Positions 22,161-28,678 of a stretch of DNA of 64,000 nt are shown piece by piece. The number at the start of each line of letters is the position of its first letter. Positions within the stretch are counted from its first letter, which is position 1. A model generated the notes under the pieces. That model worked only from the letters and a program-made list of their open reading frames with translations. It did not search any database and was not told the origin of the DNA. The translations under genes were made by a program, and so were the position numbers. The stretch is from Qipengyuania sp. YIM B01966 (lineage in GTDB: Bacteria; Pseudomonadota; Alphaproteobacteria; Sphingomonadales; Sphingomonadaceae): assembly GCF_016461955.1 (NCBI RefSeq), contig NZ_JADMNM010000002.1, forward strand, positions 124,001 through 188,000. Reading direction: 5' to 3'.

Positions 22161-23549
22161 TCAGTTGGCCTTGGGCAGCGCAAGCGTGAACCGTGCCCCC
22201 TCGCCCGGCGCGCTTTCGAGCGTAAGTTCGCCCCCCATCGCCTGTGCGAGACGGTGCGAGATGTAGAGGCCGAGGCCCGAACCGCCGTCACCGCTGCGGC
22301 CGAGGCGCTCGAACTTGTCGAACACCAGCGCATGCTGGTCGGCGGGAATACCCGGCCCCTGATCGCTGACGGTGATGCACACCCTCGTCGGCGTCTCGCT
22401 CAGCGTCAGCGTCACCTGCGTCCGCGGGGCGGAATAGGAAATCGCATTGCCGAGGAGGTTGAGTAGAACCTGCAGAACGCGGCGGAATTCTCCTGTTGCG
22501 CGCAGGCTGCTGCCAGCCGGGGGCAGGATCAGGTCGATGCCTTTTTCCTGCGCACGCATTCCGAGGATGCCCGTTGCGCGGCGCGCGACATCGGCAAGGT
22601 CAATCTGGTCGGGCTGCGTGATGAAGCCGTCGCTCTCGACTATTTCGAGGTCCGCCAGATCGTCGAGCAGCGCCAGCAAATGTTGCGCGGCCGACGAGAT
22701 GTCTGCGGCATACGCGCTGTATTGATCGTCCAGCGGGCCAGCGAGTTTGGTCCGGATCGTTTCGGCATTGGCGACGATGCGCGCTATTGGTTGGCGCAGG
22801 GCTGGCGCCAGATCGCGCCCGAGCGAAGTTTCTGCAGCGGGCAGTTCCACCCGGCCTTCGGCAGCGGTGGGTGGCTGGTCGGAAACGAGCAACAACTCAA
22901 ACCCGCTGCTGCCGGCCACCGGTTCGCCCAGCGGAATAACACGGGCCCGCCAGCTACGCGGCGATCCTTCGATCGCCACTGACGCCCCGTCAAGGAGCCG
23001 CCAGTGCATCGGCTGGCGCTGCTCGAGCCCGGGCAGGGCAACAAAATCGGTCCACGGGCGGCCCGGCCCGGCGCGCATTGCCTGGCCGAGAGACGCCAGC
23101 GCGGGTTCGGCATGGAGCACCGCGAGCAGGTTCTGCCGCTGATCCAGCCGCGCTGCGAGCTCGGCCTGCTGCCGGTCAATCGCGATGCTGCGCGCTGCGG
23201 CCTCGCCATCGGATGGCGCCGGCAGGTCAGTAGCATGCCAGCTCGTCACCATCACGGTGCAGCCGCCTGTGTCAGGGTCCGGTCTCACCTCGACCCACGC
23301 GCGAATGACATGCTCGCCATCAAAGGCTTGCACATGGCGAGCAAGCTTCAACCCGTAACGGCGCGCCTTGGCCACGAGGTCGAGCAATTCCGGGACCGCT
23401 ACCGTTCCCGGCAGTCCGCCCCCGCAGCGCCATTGGAGATCGGCCAGCGGGCCATCGGCGGACAGCAGCCGATCGTGTCCATCGGTCGTTCCTCGGGCGA
23501 TCAGGCTGGTCGTCGGCGCGTTCACCGTTAGCTGCCGGCAAAGCCGCAC
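22161..23549 (-). CDS. Histidine-kinase-like protein lacking the phosphoacceptor His
   Basis: A 462-residue soluble protein with a PAS-like N-terminal half, a dimerisation helix pair (about residues 240-300) and an intact ATPase domain: N box LLNLLGNAISYSAP, G1 DQGPGIP, G2 GSGLGLYISHRLAQAMGG. In a normal kinase the H box reads like HELRTPL; here it reads DLAPALRQPIARI, with Pro249 at the His position. The dimerisation and ATP parts otherwise look well kept, which argues against decay. It may bind ATP and act as a regulator or scaffold, or phosphorylate elsewhere. Its start overlaps the upstream gene by 22 bases. Confidence 0.85.
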   Translation of the reverse strand: MRLCRQLTVNAPTTSLIARGTTDGHDRLLSADGPLADLQWRCGGGLPGTVAVPELLDLVAKARRYGLKLARHVQAFDGEHVIRAWVEVRPDPDTGGCTVMVTSWHATDLPAPSDGEAAARSIAIDRQQAELAARLDQRQNLLAVLHAEPALASLGQAMRAGPGRPWTDFVALPGLEQRQPMHWRLLDGASVAIEGSPRSWRARVIPLGEPVAGSSGFELLLVSDQPPTAAEGRVELPAAETSLGRDLAPALRQPIARIVANAETIRTKLAGPLDDQYSAYAADISSAAQHLLALLDDLADLEIVESDGFITQPDQIDLADVARRATGILGMRAQEKGIDLILPPAGSSLRATGEFRRVLQVLLNLLGNAISYSAPRTQVTLTLSETPTRVCITVSDQGPGIPADQHALVFDKFERLGRSGDGGSGLGLYISHRLAQAMGGELTLESAPGEGARFTLALPKAN

Positions 23550-24490
23550 GAGGCGGCCAGCATCGCCCCGGCCTGATCGGCGCGCAGCGTTTCAAACCCA
23601 TCGGGCAACGCGATGTCCGGGTGGAGATAGAGAAATTGCTCCTCCACCTCCTGCGGTTGGAGGCCGGCCGCACGAAGCATCAACGCCAGGCGGGCAAGCT
23701 GCCGATCGTTTGTCGCCAGCACCGCTAACGGCCGATCTTGCCCGGTGGCGAGTGCCAGCGCGGTAAGGAACAGCGCCGTACCGGCATGATGGATCGCGAG
23801 GGCAGCGCGGGCACCGGCGCCCATGCCGGTCACGATCCGCGCCAGCAACCCGATACGGCTGGCACCTTCGTCGAACCCCGCGCGCAAGGCATCGACGCTG
23901 CGTTCGACCGCCGCGCCGTCTTCGGGGCCGAAGGTTTCAACGAACGCGACAAGTGCCTTGTGGAACAGCTCCCCCGTCAATTCGCGCAACGGCAATTCCA
24001 TCCGCCGCTGGGTTTCGATGAACCGCGCTTGCGCCGCGAGCAGACCCATGGCGCTTTCGGCAACCTGAGCATCGTCCGAAGCGACAAGCGATTGCAGCAG
24101 CGGCGACAGCACGGGATCAAGCGCACCACTTTCGTGCAGCCGCTGTGTCAATTGCGACTCAATAGCCAGCGCATGACAATGGAGCAGCAGCGCCTGGTCG
24201 GCCGCGATCTCTCCTGCAAGCCGCGTTTCGCGCTCAACGGCGAACTGCCGCGGGTCGGCCGCCCCAACGTTACTGCCATGCACCACCAGTATCTGGTTGG
24301 CGACATTTTGGACCATGCCCTGCACGCGGGCGACCACTTCATCGCTGAACAGCGAATTGTCGTGATTGGCCAGCAGATGGCCCAGCACCGGCGCAATCGT
24401 CGCGAGCACGAAATCGCCTTGGGCGAGCTCGGTGCCGAGGACGGCCGCGACATCCTGGTCCGTAGTGGGTTCAAGCGCTGCCATCGTCAT
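23528..24490 (-). CDS. Helical protein of unknown function, upstream of the kinase-like gene
   Basis: A 320-residue protein without membrane segments or signal peptide and almost wholly helical by pattern. I do not recognise a domain with confidence; the regular heptad-like leucines (for example AQALLLHCHALAIESQLTQRL minus its first residue) and the C-terminal NDRQLARLALMLRAAGLQP segment suggest helical repeats, perhaps DUF2336-like. It overlaps the kinase-like gene by 22 bases and follows the 393-residue membrane gene by 10, so all three are likely one transcript. A role in the same signalling unit is inferred from context only. Confidence 0.65.
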   Translation of the reverse strand: MTMAALEPTTDQDVAAVLGTELAQGDFVLATIAPVLGHLLANHDNSLFSDEVVARVQGMVQNVANQILVVHGSNVGAADPRQFAVERETRLAGEIAADQALLLHCHALAIESQLTQRLHESGALDPVLSPLLQSLVASDDAQVAESAMGLLAAQARFIETQRRMELPLRELTGELFHKALVAFVETFGPEDGAAVERSVDALRAGFDEGASRIGLLARIVTGMGAGARAALAIHHAGTALFLTALALATGQDRPLAVLATNDRQLARLALMLRAAGLQPQEVEEQFLYLHPDIALPDGFETLRADQAGAMLAASCGFAGS

Positions 24491-24500
24491 CCCGCCAGCC

Positions 24501-25682
24501 TTACTCGCGCATGGTTAAAGCGCCGTTATCCGCGCCGTACACCGTGCCAAGCACCATGATAAGCAGGACGACAGCAGCGATGGTCGCACCGATGCTGAGC
24601 ATGTCAGCGGCCGCCAGGATCGCGCATATCGCTGCCCACAGGCCGCTATCGGCGAATATCGCGCGGCGGGACCGTCGCGGTGTCACCCCATGCATGGCCA
24701 TAATCAGACCGCCCAACATCACGGCAGGAAACCACAGCGTTCCGTAGTCCAGCAGCAAGATGGCAATCGCTAGCAGAAACGCCCCCACCCACGGCGGCCA
24801 GCGCCTGTCCGCTTCGCCAGCCCCTTGCGGACTGAGGGAAGCGATCACATGGGTGCGCAGCGCGGCGGATAACATCATCGGAAACAGAGCTGCGGCCGCC
24901 AATGCGGCCGCCCCGTACCCCAGCCAGGCCAAGACCGCCGCGGCTGCTCCCAGCGCCGCCGCCGCCCCTGCGATCAGCCGCGGTGAAAGGCGGTCATGCA
25001 CCCGGTCAGCCATCCGCTCGCCCAGTGCCTGCGATGGTGTGGACCAGAGCGCGAGAGCGGCGTGTCGGCGGAGCAGCGCGTTCTCATATGCGCGCGCTTC
25101 GCGCTCATGACGAACTAAACGCCAGCTGCCCTCCGCAAGGATTGAAGCCGGGGCTTCGATCACCCGCGTGCCGCCCTGTAAAGCGATCCGCAGCAAAGCG
25201 GAGGGCACGTCGATATCGGGCGGCAGACCATCGAGCCGAGCCACCATGTGGCCGCGTACGCGTAATACACCGGCAAAGGCGCGGGCGGCGTCGATCCGCT
25301 CGAAACCATGGTCCACGCCGACATCTGCGGGAAGCACGACCAACCCGGCCCGATCGTCCAGCAGTTCGCGTATCTGCTGCGAATCAGCAAGCAGCCCTTC
25401 CGAGAGCAACACGACATCGCAGCCCGACGTGACCAGCCCCGCGAGGCCGCGCCGCTCGCTGACGGCATGAAAGCCGAGCCCCGCTCGCTCGGCGCTGCGT
25501 TGCAAAGCAAGGGCATCTGCTGACAACTCAGGTGTCAGGCAGACAATACGGTCAGCGCCGAGTGCGGCCAGCATGGCAAGCTGATGCTGCCCGACGCTGC
25601 GACCGAACACCAAGGGCGCCGGCCGCGAGGGTCCGTCCTCCGACCATGCGCCGCTGCCAATTGCGATGACCCCGAGGCGCAC
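24501..25682 (-). CDS. Membrane protein with nucleotidyltransferase-like N-terminal domain
   Basis: A 393-residue protein. Residues 1-200 look like a Rossmann/GT-A type nucleotidyltransferase (LGADRIVCLTP, DVVLLSEGLLADSQQIRELL, GLVVLPADVGVDHGFERID), but the usual GxGxRxR loop at the start is missing (MRLGVIAIGSGAW). Residues 225-390 hold about five membrane segments and resemble the shape of CDP-alcohol phosphotransferases without their DG-AR-D-D motif. The overall plan recalls bifunctional IPCT/DIPP synthases in a degenerate form; that parallel is inference. It sits in the probable operon with the kinase-like gene. Confidence 0.6.
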   Translation of the reverse strand: MRLGVIAIGSGAWSEDGPSRPAPLVFGRSVGQHQLAMLAALGADRIVCLTPELSADALALQRSAERAGLGFHAVSERRGLAGLVTSGCDVVLLSEGLLADSQQIRELLDDRAGLVVLPADVGVDHGFERIDAARAFAGVLRVRGHMVARLDGLPPDIDVPSALLRIALQGGTRVIEAPASILAEGSWRLVRHEREARAYENALLRRHAALALWSTPSQALGERMADRVHDRLSPRLIAGAAAALGAAAAVLAWLGYGAAALAAAALFPMMLSAALRTHVIASLSPQGAGEADRRWPPWVGAFLLAIAILLLDYGTLWFPAVMLGGLIMAMHGVTPRRSRRAIFADSGLWAAICAILAAADMLSIGATIAAVVLLIMVLGTVYGADNGALTMRE

Positions 25683-25749
25683 GCGCTACTCCCACATTGT
25701 GTGGCTTCAGATTAGGTCGGGGTGCCGGGCCCGACAAGCATCCCTGAGG

Positions 25750-26055
25750 TCAGCGCCGCGCGCGAAATTCCGTCAGATAGGTGCGGATACGGCGGACAAT
25801 GCCAGGCTCGCCCGGTGCGCCCGCCAGGGCTTCCTCGGCCATTGCCTGCAGTTCATAGGCGTGAAAGCCCGCTGCCAAGCCGCGTAAGCGGCCCGCTGCA
25901 ACCCGCCAATTGGCATCACACCGCGCGCGGGACAGCAGGTCGAGATGCGACGCCAGGCTTTCGGCAAAACTTTCGCGGAGTTCGGCATTCAGCTTCGCAT
26001 CGTGCCCTGCCACCGCAGCCAAAGTCGCGTCAAAGCTGGCGTTTTCGAAAGCCAT
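25750..26055 (-). CDS. Hpt-like protein lacking the phosphoacceptor His
   Basis: A 101-residue helical protein with the outline of a histidine phosphotransfer domain: LRESFAESLASHLDLL, then RVAAGRLRGLAAGFHAYEL where an Hpt domain would read like AHxLKGxAxxxG, and AMAEEALAGA. The His position is Gly55, so it should not carry phosphate. It is first in the series that ends with the kinase-like gene (67-base gap to the next gene). Loss of the His in both proteins suggests a binding role instead of phosphotransfer. Assignment to the Hpt fold is by pattern and moderately sure. Confidence 0.55.
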   Translation of the reverse strand: MAFENASFDATLAAVAGHDAKLNAELRESFAESLASHLDLLSRARCDANWRVAAGRLRGLAAGFHAYELQAMAEEALAGAPGEPGIVRRIRTYLTEFRARR

Positions 26056-26080: not shown

Positions 26081-26224
26081 TTAAGAACAGGTTTCGCGCG
26101 AGCGCAAACGTGATAGTCTGCGGAAATGAGCGGGGGATGGAACGTCCGGGCTGTCGGCCAGGAAGGCGCGCATCACGATGCGCATGTCGATGTATACGAT
26201 GATGCCCAGGGGGGCGAAATACAT
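26081..26224 (-). CDS. Candidate small membrane protein in the divergent intergenic region
   Basis: A 47-residue frame starting MYFAPLGIIVYIDMRIVM and ending with a basic tail. Codons here, including about a dozen upstream of this ATG, end almost always in G or C, as in real genes of this genome, while the opposite strand frame over the same bases does not. The true N-terminus may lie upstream (the frame is open and hydrophobic, IIWILACVV), but no start codon with a ribosome-binding site was found there. I do not recognise the family; a truncated gene is also possible. Confidence 0.35.
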   Translation of the reverse strand: MYFAPLGIIVYIDMRIVMRAFLADSPDVPSPAHFRRLSRLRSRETCS

Positions 26225-26269
26225 GCGGACGACGCAGGCCAGGATCCAGATGATGCCGCTAGCGCCCGG

Positions 26270-28678
26270 ATGACAGAGCAGCCCGAAGCGCGCAGGCCAA
26301 GTCGCGCGCCGCTGGTCCTGGCGATGACGTTGGCAAGTGCCTGGACAATAATCTTTGTCTGGGGGCATCTGGCGAAGATGCGGGCCGGGGCACCCCTTGC
26401 GCAATGGACCGGGTGGCTCGCGGACTGGGCGCTTCCGCTGATATTGCTGGGTGTGATCTGGCTCCTTTCTCAGCGCAACTCCGCGCGCGAGGCGTACCGC
26501 TTCGGGTTGGTCAGCACCAATCTGGCGCACCAGTCAGCAGAGCTCGAGGAGCGACTGTCCGTGGTCAACCGCGAGTTGTCGCTGGCCCGGGAATTCCTCG
26601 CTGCTCAGTCGCGCGAGCTGGAATCGCTCGGCCGGGTGGCCGGCGACCGTCTTTCATCGCACGCCGACCGGTTGCAGGGATTGATTGCCGACAATGGCGC
26701 GCAAGTCGACGCTATTGCAACTGTCAGCACGCGCGCGCTCGAAAATATGGAAAGATTGCGCGACGACCTGCCCGTCGTCGCCAATTCATCGCGCGATGTG
26801 GCCAATCTGATCGCTCATGCGGGTACGACGGCACAGAGCCAGATCGACGAGCTGGTGTCGGGCTTTGCTCGGCTCAACGAGTTCGGCGGCGCGAGCGAGC
26901 GGCAGGTGGCGACGGTGCGTGAGCGCATCAACGAAGCGCTCGAATCGATGGAACGGCACAGCGAGGACATCGCCAAAATCAGCGAGCAACGGCTTGTCGC
27001 CTTGCGGGAACAAAGCGAAGCGCATCGCGCCGAGCTTGGGTCTCGCGAGGTCGAGGTGCTGGCTGCGATGCACCAACGTGCCGAGCGCTTGCGGGACAGT
27101 GTCACTGGTATAGAAGCCGCGTTGAGCGAAGCGCAGGACCGCGCGGCGAGCGGGTGGGACGCCCAGCTGGTTCGGCTGCGCGAAGATCTACTCGCGGCGA
27201 TCGACGAAGTCTCGCAGCGCGACGAAGCTGCATCGGCCTCGGCCAGCGCGCGCCTCGCAGCGCTTAGGAACGAAGCCGAAGCGGTCGATGCGAATCTTGC
27301 CGAACGTGATCGCCTGTTCTTTGTCCAAATGGACGAACGGCGCTCGGCGGCCGAGAGGCAGAGCCAGGTCGTTATTGACGGTCTATCCACCAGCATGGCC
27401 GAACTCGACGCCATCATTGCAGAGCGCCGCGAAGATCAGATCGCCCAGACGCGTATGCTGACAGAGCACGGCGAAGCCATCGCCGCTCGCTTGCAAGACC
27501 TCTCTTCGGTTATGGAGGGGCTATCAGACCATGGTCGTCGGACGGAGGCTGGCCTCGCATCCGCCGCCCAGATTCTGACGGCCTATCTGAATGAGAGCAC
27601 GGTCGCCTTGACCGGAACGGACGCTGCCGTGCGCGACCTGACGGAAGCCAGTGTCCGCCTGCTCGAGCTGCTCGATGCAGCGCACCGGCAGACCCGGGAA
27701 GACCTGCCGCGAGCGCTCGACACGGTACAGACCCGCTTTGCGACGGTCGAGCGCGCTGGAGAAGTTTTTGCCGCGAATCTCACCAACGCCGCCAGAGAGA
27801 GCGAACGTCTGAAAGATCAACTCGCGACAGCGCGCGGGGAAGCAGCCGGAATGGCAGCCGACCTCGAAACCCTGCAACAGCACACATTGATGACGGCCGA
27901 GGCTCATCGGACCCAGATCGACGCCATGCACCAGAGCCTGGTCGAGGCTGGCCGTGACAACGACGAGCTGGCGATGCGTGCCCAGCAGACATTGTCGGGC
28001 GCGCTGGCTGGTCTGACCGCCGCAACCCGCGATGCGCTGGCGTCGCTGGAAAGCCATGATGCCGCGCGTGTGCAATCGCTCGCTGCACAGATCGGAGACG
28101 CCACCGCCGAAGCGATCGAACGGGCGATCCGCGAACGGACTGCGGGCGCGCTGGCGGAACTTGAGCAGGGTGCAACTCAGGCAACGGGTGTTGCGCGCGA
28201 TGCAACGATCCAGCTGCGCGATCAACTGGCCCGGGTGAACGAATTGGCGGGCAATCTGGAAAACCGCATTGCAAGGGCTCAGGAGCGCGCCGAGGAGCAG
28301 ATCAACCACGATTTCGCGCGGCGGATGGCGCTTATTACGGACAGTCTCAATTCCAACGCGATCGACATTGCCAATGCCCTCGCTGTGGACGTTTCCGACA
28401 CGGCGTGGTCAGCCTATCTGCGCGGTGATCGCGGCATCTTTACCCGCCGTGCGGTCCGGCTGATCGACAATGGCGAAGCACGCGAGATCGCACAGCTTTA
28501 CGAGGCCGACGCGGCCTTCCGCGATCATGTGCGGCGCTATATCCATGATTTTGAGGCGATGCTGCGCGCCATGCTCTCAACCCGCGATGGCCACGCGCTC
28601 GGGGTGACGCTGCTGAGCTCCGATATGGGCAAGCTTTATGTCGTGCTGGCGCAGGCGATCGAGCGGTTGCGCGATTAG
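26270..28678 (+). CDS. Large membrane-anchored coiled-coil protein
   Basis: An 802-residue protein. Two N-terminal membrane segments (LVLAMTLASAWTIIFVWG and WALPLILLGVIWLL) form a hairpin, followed by about 600 residues of heptad-rich, charged helix with repeated Ala/Glu/Arg/Leu stretches, and a conserved-looking globular C-terminal domain of about 110 residues (NSNAIDIANALAVDVSDTAW, then RGDRGIFTRRAVRLID). No signalling or ATPase motif is present, although such proteins are sometimes loosely labelled ATPase. The start MTEQPEARRPSR is preferred; the frame runs upstream to 26126 but with poor codon bias. It is divergent from the Hpt-like gene and converges on the DUF1467 gene. Confidence 0.75.
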   Translation: MTEQPEARRPSRAPLVLAMTLASAWTIIFVWGHLAKMRAGAPLAQWTGWLADWALPLILLGVIWLLSQRNSAREAYRFGLVSTNLAHQSAELEERLSVVNRELSLAREFLAAQSRELESLGRVAGDRLSSHADRLQGLIADNGAQVDAIATVSTRALENMERLRDDLPVVANSSRDVANLIAHAGTTAQSQIDELVSGFARLNEFGGASERQVATVRERINEALESMERHSEDIAKISEQRLVALREQSEAHRAELGSREVEVLAAMHQRAERLRDSVTGIEAALSEAQDRAASGWDAQLVRLREDLLAAIDEVSQRDEAASASASARLAALRNEAEAVDANLAERDRLFFVQMDERRSAAERQSQVVIDGLSTSMAELDAIIAERREDQIAQTRMLTEHGEAIAARLQDLSSVMEGLSDHGRRTEAGLASAAQILTAYLNESTVALTGTDAAVRDLTEASVRLLELLDAAHRQTREDLPRALDTVQTRFATVERAGEVFAANLTNAARESERLKDQLATARGEAAGMAADLETLQQHTLMTAEAHRTQIDAMHQSLVEAGRDNDELAMRAQQTLSGALAGLTAATRDALASLESHDAARVQSLAAQIGDATAEAIERAIRERTAGALAELEQGATQATGVARDATIQLRDQLARVNELAGNLENRIARAQERAEEQINHDFARRMALITDSLNSNAIDIANALAVDVSDTAWSAYLRGDRGIFTRRAVRLIDNGEAREIAQLYEADAAFRDHVRRYIHDFEAMLRAMLSTRDGHALGVTLLSSDMGKLYVVLAQAIERLRD

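Follow-up and report, generated by a model that had tools for sequence, protein, structure and literature searches.

Signalling proteins that keep a phosphotransfer fold and lack its histidine are already known one at a time: single pseudokinases such as DivL of Caulobacter, and single pseudo-Hpts such as the plant protein AHP6. DivL is reported to be devoid of kinase and phosphatase activity, binds adenosine triphosphate (ATP) weakly and is proposed to be a sensor of DivK~P, whose binding is disrupted by the change of R553 to Ala (PMC4211667). For AHP6, it is reported that this His-less Hpt can inhibit a relay (PMC3572949). A search of one open-access library found no report of an operon in which a kinase, an Hpt protein and a membrane enzyme are all without catalytic residues. 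We describe here a candidate for such an operon in Qipengyuania sp. YIM B01966, in a stretch of 64,000 nucleotides hereafter named the window (positions 124001-188000 of contig NZ_JADMNM010000002.1, or C12). Its four genes lie on the minus strand and code, in order, for an Hpt-like protein (26055-25750), a 393-amino-acid membrane protein (25682-24501, named protein 3), a 320-amino-acid protein (24490-23528, named protein 2) and a kinase-like protein (23549-22161). Judged by its sequences, the unit is real, conserved, under purifying selection and predicted to be dead for phosphotransfer. The explanation we favour, tentatively and at slightly less than an even chance, is a signalling complex of the four proteins, dead for phosphotransfer, that would act by binding and be linked to CtrA.

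The kinase-like protein has an N-terminal region that appears PAS-like by eye, without a Pfam match, a DHp domain deprived of its His, and an intact CA/ATP domain. At the H-box His position stands Pro249 (codon CCA, 22803-22805, minus strand), within DLAPALRQPIARIVANAETI, a segment that aligns opposite HELRTP of related kinases. Its ATP domain has the N, G1, F and G2 boxes; Pfam reports HATPase_c at 2.7e-29, and HisKA at 7.9e-06, with 26.3 bits against a cut-off of 26.9. The start of the gene either overlaps the preceding stop or lies a few bases downstream of it. GTG 23525 is the more probable start, because it lines up with the starts of relatives, and the residue would then be Pro241.

Conservation was read in 60 loci of the same family (Sphingomonadaceae by genome names). 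They were picked through matches to proteins 2 and 3, so that gene counts among them are not prevalences. The H-box position was occupied by Pro in 44 rows, Arg in 4, Gly and Glu in 3 each, Ser and Gln in 2 each, and Val and Asp in 1 each; neither His nor Tyr was found in any row. A second set consisted of the best 80 loci of a longer list of named genomes (Qipengyuania, Erythrobacter, Novosphingobium and others); it overlaps the first, some genomes being identical. It yielded 73 kinases, and none of the 72 readable at this position had His. A mutation private to one genome was rejected, since His is absent from all 60 rows. A shifted His in the same helix was rejected as well: residues 236-275 of the window kinase contain none, and a His somewhere in columns 240-270 was seen in 7 of 60 rows, at scattered positions. 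The acid that follows the H-box His is missing in 60/60 rows and the Thr of HExxT in 57/60, so that kinase and phosphatase chemistry both appear unlikely. Leu251, Arg252 and Pro254 are kept in 59, 54 and 60 of the 60 rows, respectively, and the ATP pocket is nearly invariant, with N364, N368, D396, G398, G423, G425 and G427 at 60/60 each.

Like DivL, this protein has a histidine kinase fold without the His, which in DivL serves as a binding sensor, and an Arg of the H-box region is kept, Arg252 matching R553 by position. The two differ in that DivL has a Tyr and binds ATP weakly, whereas the window protein has a Pro and an invariant ATP pocket. That the window kinase is itself the sphingomonad DivL was rejected, as a separate Tyr-bearing kinase (L006) is present elsewhere in the same genome, outside the pseudokinase clade and on a long branch. 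From its likeness, we take L006 to be DivL. For the receiver L281, a putative DivK, NCBIfam did not single out DivK.

The Hpt-like protein (25750-26055, minus strand) is predicted, from alignment and an AlphaFold model (predicted local distance difference test, pLDDT, 92.7), to have the four-helix Hpt fold without the phosphoacceptor His. Gly55 (codon GGC, 25891-25893) sits in AAGRLRGLAAGFHA, aligned opposite the AAHTLKG stretch of canonical Hpts. Among 41 rows, this position is Met in 15, Leu in 11, Gln in 6, Glu in 4, Ala in 2, and Gly, Thr or Trp in one each, with no His; nor was His found in any of the 71 Hpts of the named loci. Pfam gave no match for the window protein; of 17 relatives aligned with it, 11 matched Hpt with E-values of 1 or lower (best 1.9e-05). 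Hpt proteins top both lists of structural matches, the first being HptB (Z 12.1, root mean square deviation, rmsd, 2.3, 98 residues aligned), a score to be taken with caution since Z below 13 is weak for helix bundles and unrelated bundles reach 9.5. Foldseek on the same model returned no match reaching 0.001, with E-values above 0.1. The Hpt fold is shared with AHP6, as is the lack of the accepting His. The difference is that AHP6 is a plant protein for which relay inhibition is reported, and the window protein is encoded in an operon with a His-less kinase.

An earlier note on this DNA, made from the sequence alone, had pointed to Pro249 with intact ATP boxes and to Gly55, and both observations stand. 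It had raised the matter of whether these residues are fixed: Pro is common without being fixed, Gly55 occurs in one row of 41, and the constant feature across orthologues is the lack of His, not Pro or Gly. Orthologues with a normal His, which it had named as an objection along with a neighbouring His in the H-box helix, were absent from the rows read for either protein. Its statement that no response regulator is nearby agrees with our search, in which the window part of contig C12 gave no receiver-domain match (E up to 1e-4), the nearest ones on the contig being at 100014 and 289887. It had also put the Hpt gene four genes away from the kinase gene; these are in fact the first and fourth of the four, with two genes between them.

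Phosphate might instead be carried by another residue, either Tyr277, Tyr280 or His290 in the kinase, or His65, Ser63 or Asp47 in the Hpt. Conservation would allow it, with Y277 and Y280 present in 60/60 rows, H290 (in DHp helix 2) in 57/60, and, in the Hpt, Ser at column 63 in 40/41 (the window protein has Gly), D47 in 40/41 and H65 in 31/41. However, equivalent Tyr and His residues, including H290, are also found in close canonical kinases that retain the real His, so that the three kinase residues look like features of the subfamily. Moreover, H65 of the Hpt lies outside the predicted helix 47-63, and 10 of the 41 rows have Gly, Ala or some other residue in its place. We consider this explanation highly unlikely.

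Selection was estimated from pairwise ratios of non-synonymous to synonymous substitution rates (dN/dS). Values spanned 0.034-0.178 in the kinase (obtained from 7 of 8 pairs), 0.07-0.236 in protein 2 (6 of 6), 0.029-0.393 in protein 3 (7 of 8) and 0.055-0.2 in the Hpt (3 of 4). By profile, the kinase and protein 3 were each found in 59 of the 60 loci, protein 2 in 58, the domain of a divergent coiled-coil gene in 54 and the Hpt in 40. Prevalence was taken from a search with the protein 3 profile in 196 genomes of the order, including 113 of the family (a hand count): 110 of the 113 family genomes matched. Among these 110, an active-type motif was seen in G105 and G154, whose fetched stretches contain no operon, and G053 has a very divergent protein 3, its operon not being found. 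Weak partial matches came from 12 genomes of the order that do not belong to the family, and none of the other operon genes was found in nine stretches fetched around such matches. In a sample of the class, 31 of 289 genomes matched at 1e-4; the 4 strong matches (8e-80 or better) all came from this family, the remainder being at 3e-9 or weaker. Reduced operons were observed: the kinase and protein 2 genes were not found in L119, the protein 2 gene in L122, and the protein 3 gene in L096, where the other three are kept. A decaying remnant without function might be suspected from the piecemeal losses in L119 and L122 and of the Hpt in 20 of 60 loci, but the low dN/dS, the invariant ATP pocket and the 110/113 occurrence of protein 3 in the family speak against it, and we hold it to be very improbable indeed.

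The same genome encodes, outside the window, a second kinase-like protein (L306:439-2181, which is C12:403174-404916), with HELRTP as its H-box, in which Pfam detects HisKA and no HATPase. A search of 109 genomes of the family at 1e-12 gave a match to this protein in 90. In an alignment of the best 30 of these 90 genomes, the His and the next Glu are both kept in 30/30 rows, and no row (0/30) has DxGxG, GxGLGL or an N-box-like pattern, whereas DxGx(G/E/L) and GxGLGL are present in all 60 rows of the window kinase set; an acid persists at the G1 Asp column in 18 of the 30. The window protein could then be the ATP-binding catalytic half of a split kinase, phosphorylating in trans the His half, the two working only as a heterodimer and the His-less Hpt being an output decoy. 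Co-occurrence fits this scheme: among 33 genomes of assignable status, 27 have both proteins, 5 apparently neither (G121, G133, G105, G154 and G135) and none the window kinase alone. The 33rd, G053, has a weak partial match to the partner only, its operon not being found. G122, in which the kinase was not read, was left out, and 14 further genomes without a partner match are not in the table. The Fisher p of 2.5e-05 ignores the relatedness of genomes and is thus not a probability. Against the scheme, the absence of the window kinase from the five genomes was judged from missing operon genes, with no dedicated kinase search, and some partner matches counted as present are weak (G094, 6.9e-20), so that weak ones among the 90 may be other kinases. 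The window kinase lacks the acid next to the His and has Asn, Ala or Thr at H+12. Nothing in the conserved neighbourhood of the partner gene tied it to the operon or hinted at a function. Overall, we judge a split kinase unlikely.

Homologues outside the family were also examined. Among the best matches of a class-wide search with the kinase profile, non-family kinase open reading frames (ORFs) have His at the H-box in 38 of 39 cases, the other having Tyr (L371). In a tree of the kinases, whose bootstrap did not settle, all 29 pseudokinases group together in a single clade (100/100) with a long stem; its branching order does not show which group is sister to them, nor whether the kinases linked to DUF2336 are. 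Three of the four best non-family matches (L344, L346 and L345) adjoin a DUF2336-type gene, and five in all were flagged beside one (L344, L345, L346, L348 and L356). The family PF10098 was confirmed by Pfam directly for L346, and by position for L344, L345 and L348; a few of the stretches fetched around non-family kinases had been chosen for the presence of this gene. As in the window operon, a DUF2336-type gene thus stands beside a kinase of the same DHp type in these loci; the difference is that their kinases keep the His and that those stretches yielded neither an Hpt-like nor a protein-3-like gene.

The domain at the C-terminus of the coiled-coil protein occurs in 52 of 142 genomes of the class, and 40 non-family loci having it were surveyed. 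In 7 of them an Hpt gene lies upstream of the coiled-coil gene and on the opposite strand, with gaps of -38 to 1178 bp; no such Hpt was seen in the other 33. All seven (L405, L409, L417, L419, L420, L422 and L423) score above the Pfam Hpt cut-off and have the His in HxxKG. Non-family genomes show weak linkage between DUF2336 and the coiled-coil gene, at 2/40 within 600 bp and 3/40 in the stretch. This count comes from a rough profile, in which about one third of the 12 sequences look mis-framed and none of the 12 is matched by the protein 2 profile. Because homologues outside the family keep both histidines, the proposal of the earlier note that the unit was reworked is supported, with the addition that it was once active. 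Of the uses that the note had listed, we presume binding or allostery, and not another phosphorylation target. By homology, the unit seems to join two pairs, one of DUF2336 and kinase and the other of Hpt and coiled-coil protein, both once active and each having lost its His.

The two central proteins, which the earlier note had counted as unknown, are recognisable. Protein 2 (23528-24490, minus strand) appears, from the proteins that its profile brings together, to be a divergent relative of DUF2336 (PF10098), a family on which no paper was found in the open-access library searched. The window protein has no Pfam match of its own; 6 of 27 relatives match DUF2336 (best 4e-15), and the protein 2 profile matches the Pfam-confirmed DUF2336 protein of L346 at 7.4e-19. 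A scan of the named genomes with the 320-amino-acid protein found no relative, and a profile of it matched no solved structure. A periplasmic binding protein was rejected for it, Peripla_BP_3 scoring 19.5 against a cut-off of 26.5.

Protein 3 (24501-25682, minus strand) has, by profile and structure, the fold of IPCT-DIPPS: a nucleotidyltransferase-like domain joined to a membrane domain resembling cytidine diphosphate (CDP)-alcohol phosphotransferases, as in IPCT-DIPPS of Archaeoglobus (4mnd) and in AF2299 (4o6m). Its profile matches 4mnd at 4.9e-06. Of solved structures, 4mnd ranks first against the AlphaFold model (pLDDT 86.2), covering residues 1-387 (Z 20.4, rmsd 7.3, 350 aligned), and AF2299 was also matched. 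It differs from these enzymes in the absence of the catalytic Asp motif and, for the most part, of the nucleotide motif: among 141 orthologous ORFs below 1e-30, the full CDP-alcohol motif DxxDGxxAR-x8-GxxxDxxxD was found in none, and a GxGxR-like motif near the start in only 3. DxxDGxxAR is present in two of the 141, L182 and L183, both without the operon, and in the more distant relatives L172, L173, L174, L178 and L180, the last adjoining a myo-inositol-1-phosphate synthase gene. The structural match to IPCT-DIPPS and the neighbour of L180 could point to a pseudoenzyme sensor of nucleotide-activated lipid precursors, protein 3 binding a nucleotide or CDP-alcohol and reporting through the kinase. 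This appears quite unlikely: with the GxGxR-like motif in 3/141 and the full CDP-alcohol motif in 0/141, binding may be lost too, and the protein 3 gene was not found in L096, which keeps the other three. Five other relatives of protein 3, L176, L177, L179, L171 and L181, are outside the operon and without DxxDGxxAR; loss of the active site may thus have happened repeatedly in this enzyme family.

Divergent from the operon is a gene (26126-28678, plus strand; its true start may lie further in) for a long coiled-coil protein that has hydrophobic helices at its N-terminus. By its architecture the protein may be TipN-like; a literature search on TipN and Sphingomonas gave nothing useful. Alignment of 32 regions of 66-74 bp between the Hpt and coiled-coil genes revealed poor conservation except for two elements, GGTTAA-N4-GGGTTT(A/C) and TGnTAnnnT. 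The latter (26111-26119, plus strand) faces the coiled-coil gene, and we read it as an extended -10-like element. With one mismatch at most, TTAAN7TTAA occurs in 29 of 52 regions against 1.34 expected from mononucleotide shuffles, and in 28 of 42 intergenic regions, for which the remainder of these loci would predict 0.27. Exact copies were found in 8 of the 42, versus none in 416,607 flanking bases. The published full CtrA site is TTAA-N7-TTAA, placed near -35 when activating (PMC6180460). The CtrA-box-like site in the divergent promoter region probably links the unit to the CtrA programme. In five loci (L074, L075, L076, L077 and L107) the promoter footprint runs into TTATCCACA, which resembles a DnaA box.

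In the phosphotransfer-dead complex that we favour, the kinase-like protein would be a pseudokinase that forms a dimer and responds to ATP, with a four-helix stalk on which a partner docks, as DivK~P does on DivL in Caulobacter. The Hpt-like protein would be a docking decoy or adaptor like AHP6, the DUF2336 relative an old partner of the kinase, and the membrane pseudoenzyme the anchor of the complex. The module would then work by binding only, with an ATP-dependent switch. We infer the complex, and likewise receiver docking, gating by ATP, anchoring in the membrane and control by CtrA.

Several observations weigh against this explanation. H+12 is Asn, Ala or Thr in 60/60 pseudokinases, versus an aromatic residue in close canonical kinases (GF in most alignments), so that a DivK-like receiver may no longer dock on the kinase-like protein, or the partner may differ. 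Since DivL binds ATP weakly, the conserved ATP site is left unexplained by the DivL analogy. The Hpt gene is not essential to the unit, as it was not found in 20 of the 60 loci, and the coiled-coil gene was not found in 6 of the 60 fetched stretches. The CtrA-box-like footprint faces the coiled-coil gene, and its window copy, TTAA-N7-TTT(A/C) at 26081-26095 (plus strand), carries two mismatches to TTAAN7TTAA, so that a window scan allowing one finds none there. Selection on protein 3 is looser in places, with dN/dS up to 0.393. If the module does work by binding, it would offer a clean case of a phosphorelay turned to binding logic, with His-bearing relatives outside the family for comparison. 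Its CtrA-box-like promoter opens it to tests in the network of cell cycle and motility across an entire bacterial family.

Within the operon, the Hpt and protein 3 genes are separated by 67 bp, and the protein 3 and protein 2 genes by 10 bp. The operon converges on the citrate synthase gene gltA, and the order that recurs in the family is gltX-gltA, kinase, protein 2, protein 3, Hpt and coiled-coil gene, gltA being present in 54 of the 60 fetched stretches.

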